Positions 14,665 to 29,910 of a stretch of DNA of 34,681 nt are shown one piece after another (within the stretch, counting starts at the first letter, position 1; each line of letters begins with the position of its first letter). The stretch covers positions 1 through 34,681 of the forward strand of contig JAISEQ010000361.1 of the NCBI GenBank assembly GCA_031264045.1. The letters run 5' to 3'. Source of the DNA: Deltaproteobacteria bacterium (GTDB taxonomy: Bacteria; Desulfobacterota; Desulfarculia; Adiutricales; Adiutricaceae). Both the position numbers and the translations under genes were made by a program. Below the pieces are notes generated by a model. It did not search any database. It saw only the letters and a list, made by a program, of their open reading frames with translations, and was not told where the DNA came from.

Positions 14665-15285
14665 CTAGATGTATCGGTCCCTTACCGCAAGGAAGTATCC
14701 TATCGCCGCCAGCATGAGCGCGTGGGTGACGGCGCCCCCCCTGAAGCGCCTCTCCAGCTCGTCCACGGTCAGCAGGAGGGATTCGGCCTCCTCGTTCTCG
14801 TCGAAGCTCACGCCGAGGGTCTTCGAGGCGTTCCTGGCCACGGCCGTGGTGATGCCGTTCCAGAACAGGGCGGGGTTGGGGTTGAGCGTTATGAGCTCCT
14901 CGGCCGGATCCGCCGTGTAGCCGGTCTCCTCGGCGAGCTCGCGGACGGCCGCGTCCACCGGGCTTTCGCCGGGGCCGACCGCCCCGCCGGGGAGCTCCAG
15001 GGAGAAGTCCCTGGAGCCGTGCCGGTACTGGTTCACCATGACCACGCGGTTTTCAGGATCGAGGGCTATGATGTTGGCCCAGGAGGGGGCTGAAAGCACG
15101 GAGAAGGCCCTGACCCGCCCGTCCTTGGGCGACGCCGCCCGCCGTTCCACGGCCGTGAAGACGGGGGACTCGTAGACGGCCTCGTCCGAGATCCACCTCC
15201 ACGGGAGGATGCGGCCCGGGGCTGGGGCCGCGGCGGCGGGGACTTCCGGCTCCCGGTCCGCCGGCGGCTTCGCGGCCCCGCTCAC
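14665..15285 (-). CDS. NUDIX hydrolase (ADP-ribose pyrophosphatase-like)
   Basis: Nudix box GGAVGPGESPVDAAVRELAEETGYTA within ELPGG...; GTG start (15283-15285) overlaps the tyrS TGA (15282-15284) as GTGA. The longer track ORF is an artefact of reading through tyrS out of frame. Confidence 0.85.
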   Translation of the reverse strand: MSGAAKPPADREPEVPAAAAPAPGRILPWRWISDEAVYESPVFTAVERRAASPKDGRVRAFSVLSAPSWANIIALDPENRVVMVNQYRHGSRDFSLELPGGAVGPGESPVDAAVRELAEETGYTADPAEELITLNPNPALFWNGITTAVARNASKTLGVSFDENEEAESLLLTVDELERRFRGGAVTHALMLAAIGYFLAVRDRYI

Positions 15286-16583
15286 CCCGACACCTTGACG
15301 GTCTTGTAGCGCTTCTTCCCGGCCCTCAGCGTCACCTGGCCCCTGGCCAGCCACGGCGAGCCCTTCACGGGGGATCCCTCCGCGCCCGGGGAGAGCCTCT
15401 CCTCGTCCGCGTAGGCGCCTCCCTGCCTGATGAGCCTCCTGGCCTCCGACTTGGAGGAGGCCAGCCCCGCCATGACGAACAGGCCGGCCATGTCGGCGGC
15501 CTCCAGGGCCGCGAGATCGAACACCTCGGCGGGGAGCTCGGAGGCCGCGTCCGGGGGTGCGCACTCCGTTATGCGGGAGGAGGTCCTGACGGCCATGTCC
15601 GGGTCTGCTGCCCCGAAGGCCCCGGCCGAGGCGCGGAAGGCGTCGGCGGCCTCGGCGAAGCCGTGGCAGACGCTGGTCACCTCGAAGGCCAGGATCTCCT
15701 TCGCGCGGTTTATGAGGTTGCCCGGAAGGGTCGCGAGCGTCCTGCACTCCTCCTGCGGCAGGAAGGTGAAGAGGGAAAGGAGCCTTCCCGCCTCCTGATC
15801 GTCTATGTTGCGCCAGAACTGGTAGAAGTCGTAGACGGGGGTTCTGGCGGGGGAGAGCCACACGGCCCCGGCCGCGGTCTTCCCGAACTTCTCCCCGGTG
15901 CGGGGGTCGATGAGGAGGGGCATCGTGATGCCGTATGCCGAGCCTCCCGCCTCGCGGCGGATGAGCTCTATGCCCGCCACGATGTTCCCCCACTGGTCCT
16001 GGCCCCCCATCTGGAGGAGCGCCCCCTCCTCCCTGTACAGTACCAGGAAGTCGTAGGCCTGCATGATCATGTAGTTGAACTCCAGAAAGCTCAGCCCCTG
16101 CTCCAGCCTGCTCCGGTAGCTCTCGGCCGTGAGCATCCTGTTCACCGAGAAGTGCCTTCCTATGTCCCGCATGAAGCTCACGTAGTTGAGATCCTTGAGC
16201 CACGCCGAGTTGTCCCTCAAGACCCCGTTGCCCCTGGGCGGCAGGTCCACGAACCTTTCCAGCTGGGGCCGGATGCCTTCCGCGTTGGCCTCTATGTCTT
16301 CCAGGGAGAGGATCTTCCTGGCCTCCTTCCTCCCGGACGGGTCCCCCACCATGGAGGTCCCGCCCCCCAGGAGGGCGATGGGCCTGTGGCCCAGGCGGTT
16401 GAGCCAGCTCAGGGCCATGAGCGGGAGAAGGTGCCCCACGTGGAGCGAGTCCGCCGTGGCGTCGAAGCCTATGTAGGCCGACACCGGACCTTTCGCGAAG
16501 AGCTCCTGGAGCCCCTCCTCGTCGGTGACCTGGTAGTTGAAGCCGCGCTCCTGGAGCGCCCTGTAAGCGTTTTGGAGTTCCAA
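15282..16583 (-). CDS. tyrS: Tyrosyl-tRNA synthetase
   Basis: AYIGFDATADSLHVGHLLPLMALSWL (HIGH-like), GGGTSMVGDPSGRKEARK, GGQDQWGNIVAG, KFGKT (KMSKS-like), C-terminal S4 domain. Confidence 0.96.
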   Translation of the reverse strand: MELQNAYRALQERGFNYQVTDEEGLQELFAKGPVSAYIGFDATADSLHVGHLLPLMALSWLNRLGHRPIALLGGGTSMVGDPSGRKEARKILSLEDIEANAEGIRPQLERFVDLPPRGNGVLRDNSAWLKDLNYVSFMRDIGRHFSVNRMLTAESYRSRLEQGLSFLEFNYMIMQAYDFLVLYREEGALLQMGGQDQWGNIVAGIELIRREAGGSAYGITMPLLIDPRTGEKFGKTAAGAVWLSPARTPVYDFYQFWRNIDDQEAGRLLSLFTFLPQEECRTLATLPGNLINRAKEILAFEVTSVCHGFAEAADAFRASAGAFGAADPDMAVRTSSRITECAPPDAASELPAEVFDLAALEAADMAGLFVMAGLASSKSEARRLIRQGGAYADEERLSPGAEGSPVKGSPWLARGQVTLRAGKKRYKTVKVSG

Positions 16584-17096: not shown

Positions 17097-18959
17097 CTAG
17101 TGGCGGAAGGGCGGGTCCTTGGGCGGGACGGGGACGGGTCGGCAGAATCCCTCTATTTCGCACTCGGAGCACTCGTCGCACTCCTCCTCCGGGTACTCGG
17201 GGCTCTTCGAGCACTCGTCGAAGGAGGCGCAGCCTTCGCAGTCCCCGCAGTCCGGCTCCTCGTCAGCCTCTTCCTCCCCGTCCCCTCCGCCTGGCGTCTC
17301 CCCGTGAGGGGGATCGGGAGGCGACCAGGGCTCCCAGCCGTCGGCTGCCGGTCGGCGGCCGGAGCCTGAAGCGGCGGCCGGGGCCTTGCCGGGCACGTCA
17401 CCGCAGGCGCCCGGGCCGTCGTCCTCCGGATGCCGCGAGGCGAAGATCCAGTCGGAGTCCGCCGGCATGTCCTCCGCGGCGGCGAGCTCCCCGGAGACCG
17501 GTCTCAGGCGGCGGTCCTGGCCGGGGACTGCGCGGTCCGGATCCCCGGAGGTTCCGGAGGTTCCGGACGCCCATGGGGCCCCGGAGGCGCCCCGCGGTCC
17601 CGAGGCCCCCGACGCGTACGGGGGGGGCGGCCCCGAGCCCGTTCCGGAAGGGGGGGCGTCCGCCGTTGGGGGGGGGGCGGCGAACCGGGCCCCGCACGTG
17701 CCGGCCGTCCGCGCGGCAGGGTTCCCCGACCCGCCGGAGGCCCGGGAAGAAGAGGCCGAAGCCGAAGGGGAGGCGGCCCCCGAGGCGGAAGCCGTCCCGG
17801 ATCCCGAGGACGGCGCCGAAGCCGCATCCCGGGCGCCGCGACCCGCCGCCCCGGGGCCGCTCCGCCCGTTCCCTGACCGGAAGCCCTCCGGCGGCGGTTT
17901 CGTTGCCCGCGCGGCATCCCCCGTCTCCCGGACCTCGCTGGCCAGCCAGGGGAGGACGTCAGCCCCGCCTATCGCCACGGGATCGGAAAGCGTTCTGGCG
18001 AGCCGCGGGTTGGGGGCCGTGGAGAAGCGGAAGAACTCGTCCCTGGCCGCGGCCGTCTCCGCCGGCGTGGCCCCGGGGCCGGGCCCGGCCAGTATCGAGA
18101 GGGCCCGCGCCCTCTCCATCATCATCCCGGGGGAGTTGTAGGCCCAGCTCAGGAAGAGCGCCGCCTCGCCTCCCCCCTCCTGCCAGATTCTGGAGCCGAG
18201 GAAGGCGTCCGCGTAGCTCATGGCGCTGTAGAAGAGGGCCCTGCCGTCCGGGAGGTTCCATGCGGGCACGGGACCGCGGGCGCGCCTCAGGACTATCTCC
18301 GCGACGTACGGCTGGGAAATGAAGGCGCGGCGCAGCACCTGGGCGGATTCGGCGTGGCGTCCCTGGAGGAATCTCAAAAGCGCCTCCCCGTAGGCGGACT
18401 CGTAGGGCATGGGAACGGGCGGGGTCACGAAGAACTCCTCCGCCTCGTCCAGCTTCCCCAGGATCAGGAGGAGGTTTCCGACGTAGGCCCTCGCGTCGTC
18501 GGGGTTCCTCGCGTCCCATTCGGCGTGCCTCCGGCACATGGCCAGCGCCTCGGGGTATTTCCCGGCGTTCACGGTGGCGGCTATGAGGGCGTTGTGGCAG
18601 CTCAGGAAATGGATGGAGAGCTCGTCCTCGGGGTCCAGGGCTCCCCTGAAGCCCCCTATGAGCCTGAGGAGAGGCCCCATGCGGGCCGCGACGTCCCTCG
18701 CGAACTCCCCGCGGCCTCTTCCCCGGCGCTCAGCGAGCCTCGCGTCCAGGTACAGTGAAAGGGCGTCCAGGCGAAGCGGGTCGACGGCGAGTATCGCTCC
18801 GGAGGCCTCGGCGCAGGCCCCGGCCGTCAGCTCATGGCGGTAGAGACCCGCCGCGAGCCGGTCGGTCTCTCCCTTGGCGCGGCGGAGGGCCGATGCGTCC
18901 TCGGGCCTGAAGGCCCCCGTGGCGCCGCTCTCCTGGGTAAAGGCGAAGCGCAGGGACAT
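17097..18959 (-). CDS. Uncharacterised protein: helical/TPR-like N-terminus, low-complexity G/S/A/P linker, acidic Cys-rich C-terminus
   Basis: 620-aa ORF starting MSLRFAFTQESG; helical repeat-like N-half (YPEALAMCRRHAEWDARNPDDARAYVGNLLLILGKLDEAEEFF), long disordered linker, C-terminal CGDCEGCASFDEC...CDECSECEIEGFC. Confidence 0.75.
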   Translation of the reverse strand: MSLRFAFTQESGATGAFRPEDASALRRAKGETDRLAAGLYRHELTAGACAEASGAILAVDPLRLDALSLYLDARLAERRGRGRGEFARDVAARMGPLLRLIGGFRGALDPEDELSIHFLSCHNALIAATVNAGKYPEALAMCRRHAEWDARNPDDARAYVGNLLLILGKLDEAEEFFVTPPVPMPYESAYGEALLRFLQGRHAESAQVLRRAFISQPYVAEIVLRRARGPVPAWNLPDGRALFYSAMSYADAFLGSRIWQEGGGEAALFLSWAYNSPGMMMERARALSILAGPGPGATPAETAAARDEFFRFSTAPNPRLARTLSDPVAIGGADVLPWLASEVRETGDAARATKPPPEGFRSGNGRSGPGAAGRGARDAASAPSSGSGTASASGAASPSASASSSRASGGSGNPAARTAGTCGARFAAPPPTADAPPSGTGSGPPPPYASGASGPRGASGAPWASGTSGTSGDPDRAVPGQDRRLRPVSGELAAAEDMPADSDWIFASRHPEDDGPGACGDVPGKAPAAASGSGRRPAADGWEPWSPPDPPHGETPGGGDGEEEADEEPDCGDCEGCASFDECSKSPEYPEEECDECSECEIEGFCRPVPVPPKDPPFRH

Positions 18960-21683: not shown

Positions 21684-22157
21684 ATGAAACTGGAAAATCT
21701 GTCGGTCACCGATCGGAGATTCCGGAATCTCAGGGATGGCAGTTTTCTCAACATCCACAAGACGGAATGCATCTGCAATATTCTTAACGTTTTCAATTGC
21801 AGTTTTTGCTTTCTGTCACGGCCCAGGAGGTTCGGCAAGACGCTTCTGCTTGATACCATACGCGAGCTGTTCCAGGGCGACCGGAAGCTTTTCAGGGGAC
21901 TCTGGATCGACAGAAGCGACTGCAGGTTCGAAAAGCACCCGGTCCTGAACTTCAACATGGCCTATGCAAAGATATCCTCCTCTGACGACCTTATCCGCAG
22001 GATCGCGGATGTTTTGAGAGATATGTCTGTTCAGCAGGACGTGAGCGTAACTTCGAATTCTTTCGACATGATGCTGGAGCAGCCTTCAGAAGGTATTTAC
22101 AGCAAGCAAGGTGTAGGCGTTTCCATCCTGGTTGACGAGTGCGATTTAAGCCTATGA
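21684..22157 (+). pseudogene. Truncated AAA-ATPase-like protein (N-terminal third of a PF09820/PF08011-type protein)
   Basis: Closely related to the N-terminus of the 22872-24611 protein (FLSRPRRFGKTLLL, FQGDRKLF.GLWID.SD..FEKHPVLNFNMAY, ILVDE) but homology stops at the Walker B-like VDE and the ORF ends a few codons later. Confidence 0.85.
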
Positions 22158-22871: not shown

Positions 22872-24611
22872 ATGCAGGAGCTCAACGAAAATATTATGGA
22901 ACTGGATAAATTGCCCTTAACTGATCGGTCATTTAGGGATATACGAGAGAATAATTATCTCTACATCGACAAGACTGAATATATCTACAAGATTCTTAAT
23001 GTTTTCAATTATAACTGTTGCTTTCTGTCCCGTCCCAGGCGCTTCGGCAAGACGCTTTTGCTTAAGACAATCAATGCCTTGTTTCAGGGTGACCGGAAGC
23101 TTTTCAGTGGGCTGTGGATCGACAAAAGCGATTACCAGTTCGAAAAGCACCCGGTCCTGAACTTCAACATGGCATACAGCGAGATCTACACCAAGGATGA
23201 TCTCATCTCAAGGATCAAGACGGACTTGCGGAACGCTGGTGATTTGGAGGAGATTAAGATAAACGCAACTTCCTACGGTGAGATGCTGGGGGAGCTTCTG
23301 AAAGGTATCTCGTTGAAGTATGGAGTCGATGCCGTCATCCTGGTGGACGAGTATGATGCTCCGGTGGCCAGAAATATATCGGATCGAACGCTTGCCGCTG
23401 CCAACCGGGACGTCCTGCATGATTTTTACCAGTCCATGAAAACCAACATTGACTCCATTCACTTCGTCTTCGTCACTGGTATAACCAGATTTGCCATGTC
23501 CAGCTTTGACTCCGGACCAAACAACTTCATGGACATTTCACTTCAACCTGAATTGGCAGGAATCTGCGGGTTCACCCCACGCGAGCTGGACAACTATTTC
23601 GGGGACAGGATGGAGCAGATTCTCCAAAAGCTGAAAGACGATGAGGCAGTTGCCGCGAACGCCGATGTTGATGATTTGAAGAAGATAATCTTTGATTGGT
23701 ACGACGGGTACAACTGGCTGGGGCCCGAGCACGTCCTTAATCCATACTCGATACTGTATTTTTTTGCTCGAAAAGAATTCGATGCATACTGGCCTGTTTC
23801 AGGATATACTTCCCACCTGAGAGCCCTCGTAAGGGAAAATCCGCAAAAGTTTCTTCAGCCTCGGCTGGACAGTTATACTTCAGCTGAACTCGGAATATCA
23901 CATCTCGACAATCTCAAACCTGTCCCCGTGCTGTTCCACAGCGGTTATTTGACAATTGACCGCAAAATATCCAATAATATCCGTTCTGAAGGCAGAACTA
24001 AGGTAGTCAAGACGTTCACTTTCAGGACACCCAACTGGGAAGTCGAACAAAATTTCAGAGCATCACTTTTCAAGGATGCTTTCGCCCCGGAAGAGTCGTA
24101 TTTAAGCGCTTTGACGGAGCTCCTTCCGGAAGCCCTGTTGGAGAAAAACTCCGAAAACGTGTCAGATCTTCTGCATGACCTTCTTTCCTCAATATCTTTC
24201 GGGCAGCACGCAAGTTCCGGACAGCGTATTTTTTCTGAAAAATATTACCATTCAATAATCCATGCCTCTTTGCTCGCGGCGGGTTTTGAAGTCTACAGCC
24301 AGGGGTCTGGTGCCCATGGCATGTCCGACATCACATTGTTCCTTACAGATAGAGTACGCGTTGTAATAGAGCTGAAATACTGCAGTGCTGACAGTGATGT
24401 ATCCGACTACTATTCATCCCAAGCCGGAAAGGCGCAGTCGGAAAATGAACGCTCGGCAAAGGAGTTTACTGCCGCTCTCGATAGGGCGGAAAAACAGATA
24501 ATTGCAAACGACTACGCCGGACCATACAGAGCGAACCGATGCGAGGTGATATGCATGGCCCTCGCGCTCCGGGGCAGGGACGAGGTGAAGGTCCGTTTTT
24601 TAGATCTTTAG
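22872..24611 (+). CDS. AAA-ATPase-like / PD-(D/E)XK nuclease superfamily protein
   Basis: SRPRRFGKTLLLKTINALFQG (Walker A-like), ILVDEYDAPVAR (Walker B), C-terminal GSGAHGMSDITLFLTDRVRVVIELKY nuclease-like core. Start may instead be MELDKLPL at 22896. Confidence 0.9.
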   Translation: MQELNENIMELDKLPLTDRSFRDIRENNYLYIDKTEYIYKILNVFNYNCCFLSRPRRFGKTLLLKTINALFQGDRKLFSGLWIDKSDYQFEKHPVLNFNMAYSEIYTKDDLISRIKTDLRNAGDLEEIKINATSYGEMLGELLKGISLKYGVDAVILVDEYDAPVARNISDRTLAAANRDVLHDFYQSMKTNIDSIHFVFVTGITRFAMSSFDSGPNNFMDISLQPELAGICGFTPRELDNYFGDRMEQILQKLKDDEAVAANADVDDLKKIIFDWYDGYNWLGPEHVLNPYSILYFFARKEFDAYWPVSGYTSHLRALVRENPQKFLQPRLDSYTSAELGISHLDNLKPVPVLFHSGYLTIDRKISNNIRSEGRTKVVKTFTFRTPNWEVEQNFRASLFKDAFAPEESYLSALTELLPEALLEKNSENVSDLLHDLLSSISFGQHASSGQRIFSEKYYHSIIHASLLAAGFEVYSQGSGAHGMSDITLFLTDRVRVVIELKYCSADSDVSDYYSSQAGKAQSENERSAKEFTAALDRAEKQIIANDYAGPYRANRCEVICMALALRGRDEVKVRFLDL

Positions 24612-27931: not shown

Positions 27932-29485
27932 TCAGAGTGGCCCCGTGCCAAGGATCGTCCCGCCGCCCACCACGATCTCCCCGTCGTAGAATACCGCGGC
28001 CTGACCCGGGGCCACGGCCGTCTGCGGCGTCCGGAAGGTGACGAGCGCCCTCCCGTCCGCCAGCGGCTCCAGGAGCGCCGGCGTTTCCGGCTGGCGGTAG
28101 CGGATCTTGCAGCCGATCTCCATGGGCCCCTGAAGCTCCCCGACGGATATTAGGTTCAGATCCCCCACCAGGGCAGAGGCGGACGCCAGATCCCCGTATC
28201 CCCCGACCGTCAGGGAGTTTCGGACGGGGTCTATCCTCAGCACGTATGAGGGCTCCGGGCCGGGGAGTCCCAGTCCCTTCCTCTGGCCCACCGTGTACCG
28301 CCAGACTCCCCCGTGCCTCCCTATGACCTTCCCATCCTTCGCTAGTATGTCGCCCGGACCGGGGAGTCCCGCGAAGGGGCCGGGTCCGGAGAGCCCGCAT
28401 GCCGCTTCACCCGCCGCCGCGCCCACGTCCCCCGCTGTCGCGCCGCGCTCCGCCGGCTTTCCGTATCCGCCCGCAGGCGAACCGAAGCCGGCGGGATCCG
28501 CACCCCGGAGTCCCAGGAGCGCCCGGTCCCCGTCCCGTCCAGCGCCCGGATCTCCGGCCTTTCCTTCCCTTCCTTGCCCTTCCCAGTTTCCTCGCCCTTC
28601 TTCGCTGCCTTGCCAGTCGCCTCCTCCCTGCCCCTCTTCCCCTCCTTCTCCTCCCGTTCCGCCTCCGCCTCCCCGCGGGCCCGGAAGCCCCTCGTTCCAG
28701 CGCCCCTCCGGCCCCGCCGGGCCGGCGGCGAGAAATCCCGCGTAGTCCCCGTCCGGAACGAAGCATATGTCCTGGCTCTCGGGCTTCATGGCCACCTCGA
28801 GCCCGGCCTCGGAGCACAGGGCCCGCGTCTCGGCCTTGGTGATGTCCCCGAGGGGGAACAGGACGGCCCCGAGCTCCTCCTGCGTCATGGCGTAGAGGAC
28901 GTAGCTCTGGTCCTTGGTCCGGTCCCTGGCCTTCAGGAGCAGGAGGCGGGAGCCGTCCCTTGCGATTCTCGCGTAGTGGCCGGTGGCTATCTTCCGGAAC
29001 CCCAGGATCCCTGCCCGCTCCCTGAGCCTCGCGAACTTCATGCGGCGGTTGCACAGGATGCAGGGGTTGGGGGTCCTGCCCGCCAGGTAGTCCTCCCGGA
29101 AGGGAACGACCACCTCCTCCCAGAAGGAGCGGGTGAAGTTGAAGACCATGTGGTCCATGTCCAGCTTCCCGCAGGCGGCCCTGGCGTCCTCTATGTCACG
29201 CCTGGAGCAGCAGCTCCTCCTGCCGGCGCAGTCCGCCCCGGCCGGATAGTCAAGGAGCTTCATCGTGGCGCCGGCCGCGTCCCATCCCGCCCGCTTCAGG
29301 AGAAGCGCGGCGCAGCCCGAGTCCACCCCCCCGCTCATGGCGACCAGGACGCGGCCGGGGGACTCGCGGGCAGCCGCCCCGGACAGGGCCGGGGAAGGGG
29401 AGCCGGAAGGGGCGTCGGGCGGAGCGCCGGACGTGCCGGGGGGAGGCGTGCGGCCGGGCGGGATCGGATTATGGATGGGAGGCAT
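27932..29485 (-). CDS. mnmA: tRNA-specific 2-thiouridylase MnmA with internal low-complexity insertion
   Basis: MSGGVDSGCAALLLKRAGWD PP-loop, TPNPCILCNRRMKFARL, ATGHYARIA, KDQSYVLYAMTQEELGAVLFPLGDITKAETR, SQDICFVPDGDYAGFL, WRYTVGQRKGLG. ATG at 29485 is one candidate start; the real one could be nearer the PP-loop. Confidence 0.92.
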   Translation of the reverse strand: MPPIHNPIPPGRTPPPGTSGAPPDAPSGSPSPALSGAAARESPGRVLVAMSGGVDSGCAALLLKRAGWDAAGATMKLLDYPAGADCAGRRSCCSRRDIEDARAACGKLDMDHMVFNFTRSFWEEVVVPFREDYLAGRTPNPCILCNRRMKFARLRERAGILGFRKIATGHYARIARDGSRLLLLKARDRTKDQSYVLYAMTQEELGAVLFPLGDITKAETRALCSEAGLEVAMKPESQDICFVPDGDYAGFLAAGPAGPEGRWNEGLPGPRGGGGGTGGEGGEEGQGGGDWQGSEEGRGNWEGQGREGKAGDPGAGRDGDRALLGLRGADPAGFGSPAGGYGKPAERGATAGDVGAAAGEAACGLSGPGPFAGLPGPGDILAKDGKVIGRHGGVWRYTVGQRKGLGLPGPEPSYVLRIDPVRNSLTVGGYGDLASASALVGDLNLISVGELQGPMEIGCKIRYRQPETPALLEPLADGRALVTFRTPQTAVAPGQAAVFYDGEIVVGGGTILGTGPL

Positions 29486-29607
29486 GAACCTGGGTGATCG
29501 CCCGCCGGGCGCGGCGAGCGGGCGCGGCTCCGGAGGCGCGTGTATTGCGGGGCGGGACGGTGGGGCCGGGGAGGGACGGGGGACGTGCCGGGGCGGCCCG
29601 GCCGCCC

Positions 29608-29910
29608 TCATGCCCCGGGCCGGACGTTCTTCTCCCTTTCCCTGTTCCAGTAGTGGATGTACAGGCAGATGTCGCATCCGACCAGGAGCGTGTTCGCGAC
29701 GTAGAAGATGAGGACGTAGTTTATCGTGTCCCCCAGGACCTTGGCCCCTATCCCGAACATGTAGCCGACGAAGACTATCGCGAGGAACGTGATGCTCTTG
29801 CCCCGGATGCTCTTGCTGCGCAGGGTGTGGAGAATGTTGGCGGGCCACGCGAAGCCGAAGGCCACAAGCATCCCGCTTTCCAGGAACTTGGAGATGTCCG
29901 ACGGGTCCAT
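29608..29910 (-). CDS. Small membrane protein, PQ-loop/SemiSWEET-like
   Basis: MDPSDISKFLESGMLVAFGFAWPANILHTLRSKSIRGKSITFLAIVFVGYMFGIGAKVL..., three hydrophobic helices; start ATG at 29910. Confidence 0.75.
   Translation of the reverse strand: MDPSDISKFLESGMLVAFGFAWPANILHTLRSKSIRGKSITFLAIVFVGYMFGIGAKVLGDTINYVLIFYVANTLLVGCDICLYIHYWNREREKNVRPGA

Follow-up and report, generated by a model that had tools for sequence, protein, structure and literature searches.

A 620-residue protein encoded in the window (the whole 34,681-nucleotide stretch of DNA analysed here, contig C302 of a 4.76 Mb genome bin that is 82.65% complete) ends in a cysteine tail with the pattern CX2CX2CX5C-X10-CX2CX2CX5C (17142-17249, minus strand), whose eight cysteines are invariant in all ten tailed homologues, drawn from five genera of one bacterial family. 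From the sequence comparisons, what appears to be new is the presence of so strongly conserved a Cys tail on a common TPR protein; the spacing itself is not new. The mapped parts of this gene, referred to below as the TPR-Cys gene, are listed in Table 1.

Table 1. Position in the window of the TPR-Cys gene, its parts and its downstream neighbour
Feature	Position	Strand	Basis
TPR-linker-Cys-tail gene, 620 aa	17097..18959	-	ORF; homologous frames open in 5 genera
Predicted TPR-type alpha-helical core, residues 1-340	17940..18959	-	AF2 of orthologue L010; Foldseek; Pfam TPR
Low-complexity linker, residues 341-570	17250..17939	-	Conservation 0.27; pN/pS 0.79; orthologue pLDDT mostly <50
First CX2CX2CX5C motif CGDCEGCASFDEC, residues 571-583	17211..17249	-	ORF, alignment, shuffles
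Second CX2CX2CX5C motif CDECSECEIEGFC, residues 594-606	17142..17180	-	Like iron-sulfur-flavoprotein sites
Conserved C-terminal end	17100..17141	-	K-[DE]-PP-[FY]-RH in same-genus orthologues (alignment)
tyrS (tyrosyl-tRNA synthetase), conserved downstream neighbour	15282..16583	-	Pfam tRNA-synt_1b; synteny

Conservation of the cysteine tail

The preliminary description had reported a duplicated motif with identical spacing and ten residues between the copies, and the reading frame bears this out, the gap being exactly ten residues. When the last 60 residues were shuffled with their composition preserved, two copies of the motif arose with a frequency of 4e-5, and 0.7% of the shuffled sequences contained one copy or more; evolutionary conservation is the stronger evidence for the motif. 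The ten tailed proteins were those of the window, the copy on contig C43, four genomes of the same genus, and G006, G009, G012 and G016. While all eight tail cysteines were kept in every one of them, each of the five remaining cysteines of the protein was kept in only 1 to 9 of the ten. Also invariant in the tail were Gly572 and the Glu, Gly and Phe of E-C-E-x-E-G-F-C.

Within the genus, pN/pS was 0.24 in the tail as compared to 0.55 in the TPR core and 0.79 in the linker, a ranking that is more reliable than the values themselves, since saturation affects part of the synonymous differences and the tail spans just 40 codons. Mean column conservation was 0.61 in the core, 0.27 in the linker and 0.76 in the tail. 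The tail is thus the part of the gene under the strongest purifying selection.

A scan of 84,980 genomes for the tail pattern returned seven loci only, each of them a relative of the TPR-Cys protein, and a search with the tail profile found no further copy of the tail in the protein's own genome. One tailed homologue (L009, in G012) carries an extra cysteine stretch, CLSCESYKTCVDFDEKLDKC, just before the tail, possibly a third site.

The TPR core, its linker and relatives without the tail

The N-terminal part of the protein had been described as TPR-like, and structure prediction, Pfam and Foldseek agreed on this. In the AF2 model of a short-linker orthologue (L010), the first ~340 residues form a helical core with small strands at either end, predicted with a pLDDT mostly above 90. 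In a Foldseek search of the PDB the best matches were all TPR proteins (best E 2e-3, none below 0.001), the top hmmsearch match was an engineered TPR protein (E 5e-35), and the Pfam TPR models matched 14 of 15 family members, weakly in the case of the window protein itself. The N-terminal 340 or so residues are therefore confidently modelled as a TPR domain and can be placed in the TPR superfamily.

The linker that follows is strongly variable in length between orthologues. It is predicted to be disordered, as proposed in the preliminary description, from its low pLDDT in the orthologue and its low column conservation. In the full-length model of L010 both linker and tail had a pLDDT mostly below 50, and the tail modelled alone by AF2 reached 65, so a fold cannot be claimed for it. 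No signal peptide was evident by eye, and the protein was taken as cytoplasmic.

Homologues from 12 further genomes of the bacterial family came up in a genome search. The family is probably Candidatus Adiutricaceae of termite guts, a placement that follows the literature on such MAGs and the taxonomy entry, the named homologue records being 'Deltaproteobacteria bacterium' MAGs. A second TPR-Cys gene, 55% identical over residues 1-467, lies on contig C43 (L076, 101-4519) of the window's own genome bin (G000), together with a second tyrS (88%); this second pair probably reflects either two species mixed in the MAG or a duplication. The five homologues of genus g6 have the TPR core and different, acidic ends, namely ECGCGCGA, GCGCGCGGHDHRH, (CG)n-DPDHKH, ECGCGYDA, or an end without any cysteine. 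The homologue in G028 (L016), in which a long (CG)n run is followed by DPDHKH, likely carries a metal-binding tail of another type. In a tree built from the core, the proteins with the two tail types lie on opposite sides of one branch, supported at 100/100.

Further afield, TPR proteins of Geoalkalibacter (WP_040202829.1), E. coli (WP_000999851.1) and Rhizobium (WP_203021066.1) align end to end with the same core of about 340 residues, from the N-terminal strand to a shared C-terminal PW motif near residue 338, which marks the limit of the alignment; unlike the TPR-Cys protein they stop there, with neither linker nor Cys tail. The E. coli relative (L158, L160) is present in about a third of the complete genomes of that species (1,951 of 5,426), and in strain C it adjoins an integrase at tRNA-Sec. 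More distant relatives (L152-L154) gave profile alignments at E 4e-13, where generic TPR controls gave 3e-7 to 2e-3; one of these relatives, L153, also carries a SEC-C motif and matches ST7. Membership of the window protein in ST7 (PF04184) was rejected, as it has no Pfam match above the cut-off; the ST7 model matched nothing in 63 genomes of the class, and the control genomes gave no match either.

The preliminary description had named homologues lacking the cysteines as evidence against it. Such proteins do exist, in g6, E. coli, Rhizobium and Geoalkalibacter, but only among the more distant relatives, all ten tailed homologues having kept the full set. Judging from the tail-less relatives and the g6 ends, the Cys tail was added, in this lineage specifically, to a TPR protein that is widespread in bacteria.

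Genome neighbourhood

The gene belongs, in genera g1, g2, g5 and g8, to the cluster def-fmt-(SemiSWEET)-mnmA-larE-ppi-[TPR-Cys gene]-tyrS-NUDIX-lipoprotein-rnj, although not all of these genes were visible on each contig, and SemiSWEET and the lipoprotein were named by eye. The distance to tyrS is about 35-75 nt in some relatives, in which the two genes may be co-transcribed, as compared to ~500 nt in the window. In two g6 genomes trxB (thioredoxin reductase) lies upstream of the TPR homologue, while in two others of that genus, G017 and G025, trxB and tyrS are immediate neighbours and the TPR gene is missing. Likewise, most of the family's other genera showed no TPR gene before tyrS. Since it is missing at its locus in related genomes, the TPR-Cys gene is dispensable, and because it sits in a housekeeping cluster as well, the neighbourhood says little about its function. 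A functional tie to MnmA and LarE (sulfur transfer) or to TrxB was dropped on the same grounds, given that two genomes of g6 have no TPR gene separating trxB from tyrS. A defence system and a phage origin were also considered and discarded, PADLOC returning nothing and no phage match being found.

Relatives have ppi and larE side by side; in the window the two are separated by an AAA-ATPase_like/PDDEXK_9 gene and a truncated paralogue (21684-22157 and 22872-24611, plus strand), probably an insertion. In the product of the MnmA gene (27932-29848, minus strand), some 130 residues of Gly-rich, low-complexity sequence are inserted after the HUP domain and before the PRC barrel; insertions of low complexity seem to be frequent in the genus.

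Candidate metal sites and the role of the tail

The tail gave no match above threshold to Pfam, NCBIfam or PDB families, and PDB and Pfam searches of the tails found no known zinc-ribbon or ferredoxin family, in agreement with the preliminary description. A PDB sequence match to scytovirin (E 0.67) was judged to be due to chance, known zinc fingers were matched only below threshold, and zf-CXXC (PF02008) scored 11.3 bits against a cut-off of 26.5 (E 0.36) in one of the ten tails. A literature search under the spelling CX2CX2CX5C found nothing. In iron-sulfur flavoproteins, the compact motif CX2CX2CX5-7C has been reported as the likely ligand of a [4Fe-4S] cluster (PMC3164229). The tail contains two copies of the compact CX2CX2CX4-7C arrangement of these proteins (Isf; FMN_red, PF03358). 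Of the new metal-binding adaptor initially proposed, the TPR-linker-tail layout and the constraint on the cysteines stand, while the spacing can no longer be called new, and metal binding is inferred.

The likeness to Isf extends beyond spacing. Outside the family, the best matches of the tail profile were weak ones to FMN_red proteins (L108-L111, L113, L117 and L119; C[QK]ECG[TAN]CE[RK][EK]GFC), at E 0.0007-0.007 per genome; apart from weak matches, the 395 genomes of the phylum yielded no further copy of the tail. Sites of the form C-x-E-C-x-x-C-E-x-x-G-F-C in other Desulfobacterota, of which CQECGTCEREGFC is an example, are locally near-identical to the second copy. L108, L109, L110, L111, L113, L117 and L119, all from other Desulfobacterota, combine in one chain the FMN_red domain, with its CX2CX2CX5C motif, and a low-molecular-weight phosphatase/arsenate-reductase-like domain. 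The TPR-Cys protein, in contrast, has no FMN_red or flavodoxin match, its core being an unrelated TPR domain, and carries the motif twice, X10 apart, at a C-terminus predicted to be disordered. In the host's own bacterial family, 22 of 30 FMN_red loci contain CX2CX2CX5-7C, in keeping with a cluster site; most of these have X7 and different flanks, so the resemblance may be convergent.

Catalogued 2[4Fe-4S] ferredoxins follow CX2-7CX2-4CX2-3CX14-42CX1-2CX2-8CX3C (PMC8928951, PMC11430716). The tail likewise consists of two symmetric four-Cys copies opening with CX2CX2C, but has CX5C in place of CX3C, X10 in place of X14-42 and no proline after the fourth cysteine, which confirms the difference from classical spacing noted at the outset. 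No Fer4-type profile matched the ten tails at E up to 1 and no ferredoxin appeared in the PDB search; a classical 2[4Fe-4S] ferredoxin was thus rejected. SEC-C/SecA-type domains (PF02810), YecA and YchJ similarly place a small Cys-rich metal-binding element on a flexible connection. Their cysteine pattern is another one, with three cysteines plus His/Cys in SEC-C as opposed to eight cysteines in the tail; the link to them is L153, which joins a SEC-C motif to a distantly related TPR core.

The Isf spacing and the likeness to FMN_red proteins favour [4Fe-4S] as the bound species. The reading we tentatively prefer, at somewhat less than an even chance, is a TPR adaptor with a tethered tail of two [4Fe-4S] sites serving as a redox- or metal-responsive handle. 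The helical core would bind a partner, and to this core the long linker would tether an acidic, mobile tail whose two equivalent four-Cys sites would each carry one cluster in the compact Isf mode without a flavodoxin domain. The tethered clusters could then act in docking or in one-electron exchange with a client, an arrangement that may be likened to the small metal-binding tail of SecA and SEC-C proteins. The invariant cysteines, the low pN/pS of the tail, the confident model of the TPR core, the two symmetric copies that recall the duplicated ferredoxin layout, and the hosts, which are probably anaerobes of termite guts, are all consistent with this. Against it stand the weakness of the profile matches and the possible convergence with Isf, the lack of a confident AF2 fold or of any sign of a hydrophobic core sheltering the clusters, and the absence of the gene from several related genomes. 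What speaks most strongly against a cluster role that depends strictly on geometry is the replacement of the tail in g6 by (CG)n or Cys-less ends, which suggest a general metal or thiol capacity over a precise cluster geometry. A bolder version, in which a duplicated Isf cluster motif was freed from flavodoxin to form a double [4Fe-4S] handle of ~36 residues for mobile electron transfer or redox sensing, unlike catalogued ferredoxins, appears unlikely.

The main rival, possible though also short of probable, is that zinc (or single Fe2+) occupies both four-Cys sites, which fold a small structural tail for docking, with no redox cluster. Precedents are the mobile metal-binding domain at the extreme C-terminus of SecA, which binds SecB (PMC8076867), and the Cys-rich, zinc-binding C-terminus of class II ribonucleotide reductase (PMC5704485). 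The SEC-C motif of L153 points the same way, as do the acidic, CXXC-rich composition of the tail and the (CG)n tails of g6, two of them with His-containing ends, which would suit Zn or Ni. The SEC-C pattern CXCX8C[HC] is, on the other hand, not present in the tail, which has no Pfam SEC-C match and no zinc-finger match above the cut-off. Zinc knuckles usually pair two CXXC units, and a CX2CX2C triplet with a fourth cysteine is more typical of [4Fe-4S].

A lesser rival is a thiol module without defined sites, operating through reversible disulfides or metallothionein-like metal buffering. That g6 orthologues have short (CG)n runs in its place, or have lost the cysteines, would fit such a role, as would the thioredoxin reductase gene directly upstream in some genomes of that genus. 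This neighbour occurs in g6 only, and the exact spacing, together with CGDC and ECEIEGFC, is kept across ten diverged homologues beyond what a disordered thiol store would need, making this explanation improbable. That the tail is a non-functional by-product of GC-rich expansion, akin to the linker and to insertions such as that in MnmA, is very improbable and already contradicted by the strong purifying selection on it and by the retention of all eight cysteines in every tailed homologue, those of the short-linker genera (L009-L012) included.

If the tail did carry the two [4Fe-4S] clusters of the preferred reading, it would represent a natural double Fe-S module of very small size that lacks a ferredoxin fold, and would bear on the movement of Fe-S motifs between proteins and on minimal redox peptides. 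If it bound zinc instead, it would add another example of a TPR adaptor with a swappable metal tail at its C-terminus. With either metal, the tail would offer a testable handle on the function of a common, uncharacterised bacterial TPR family.
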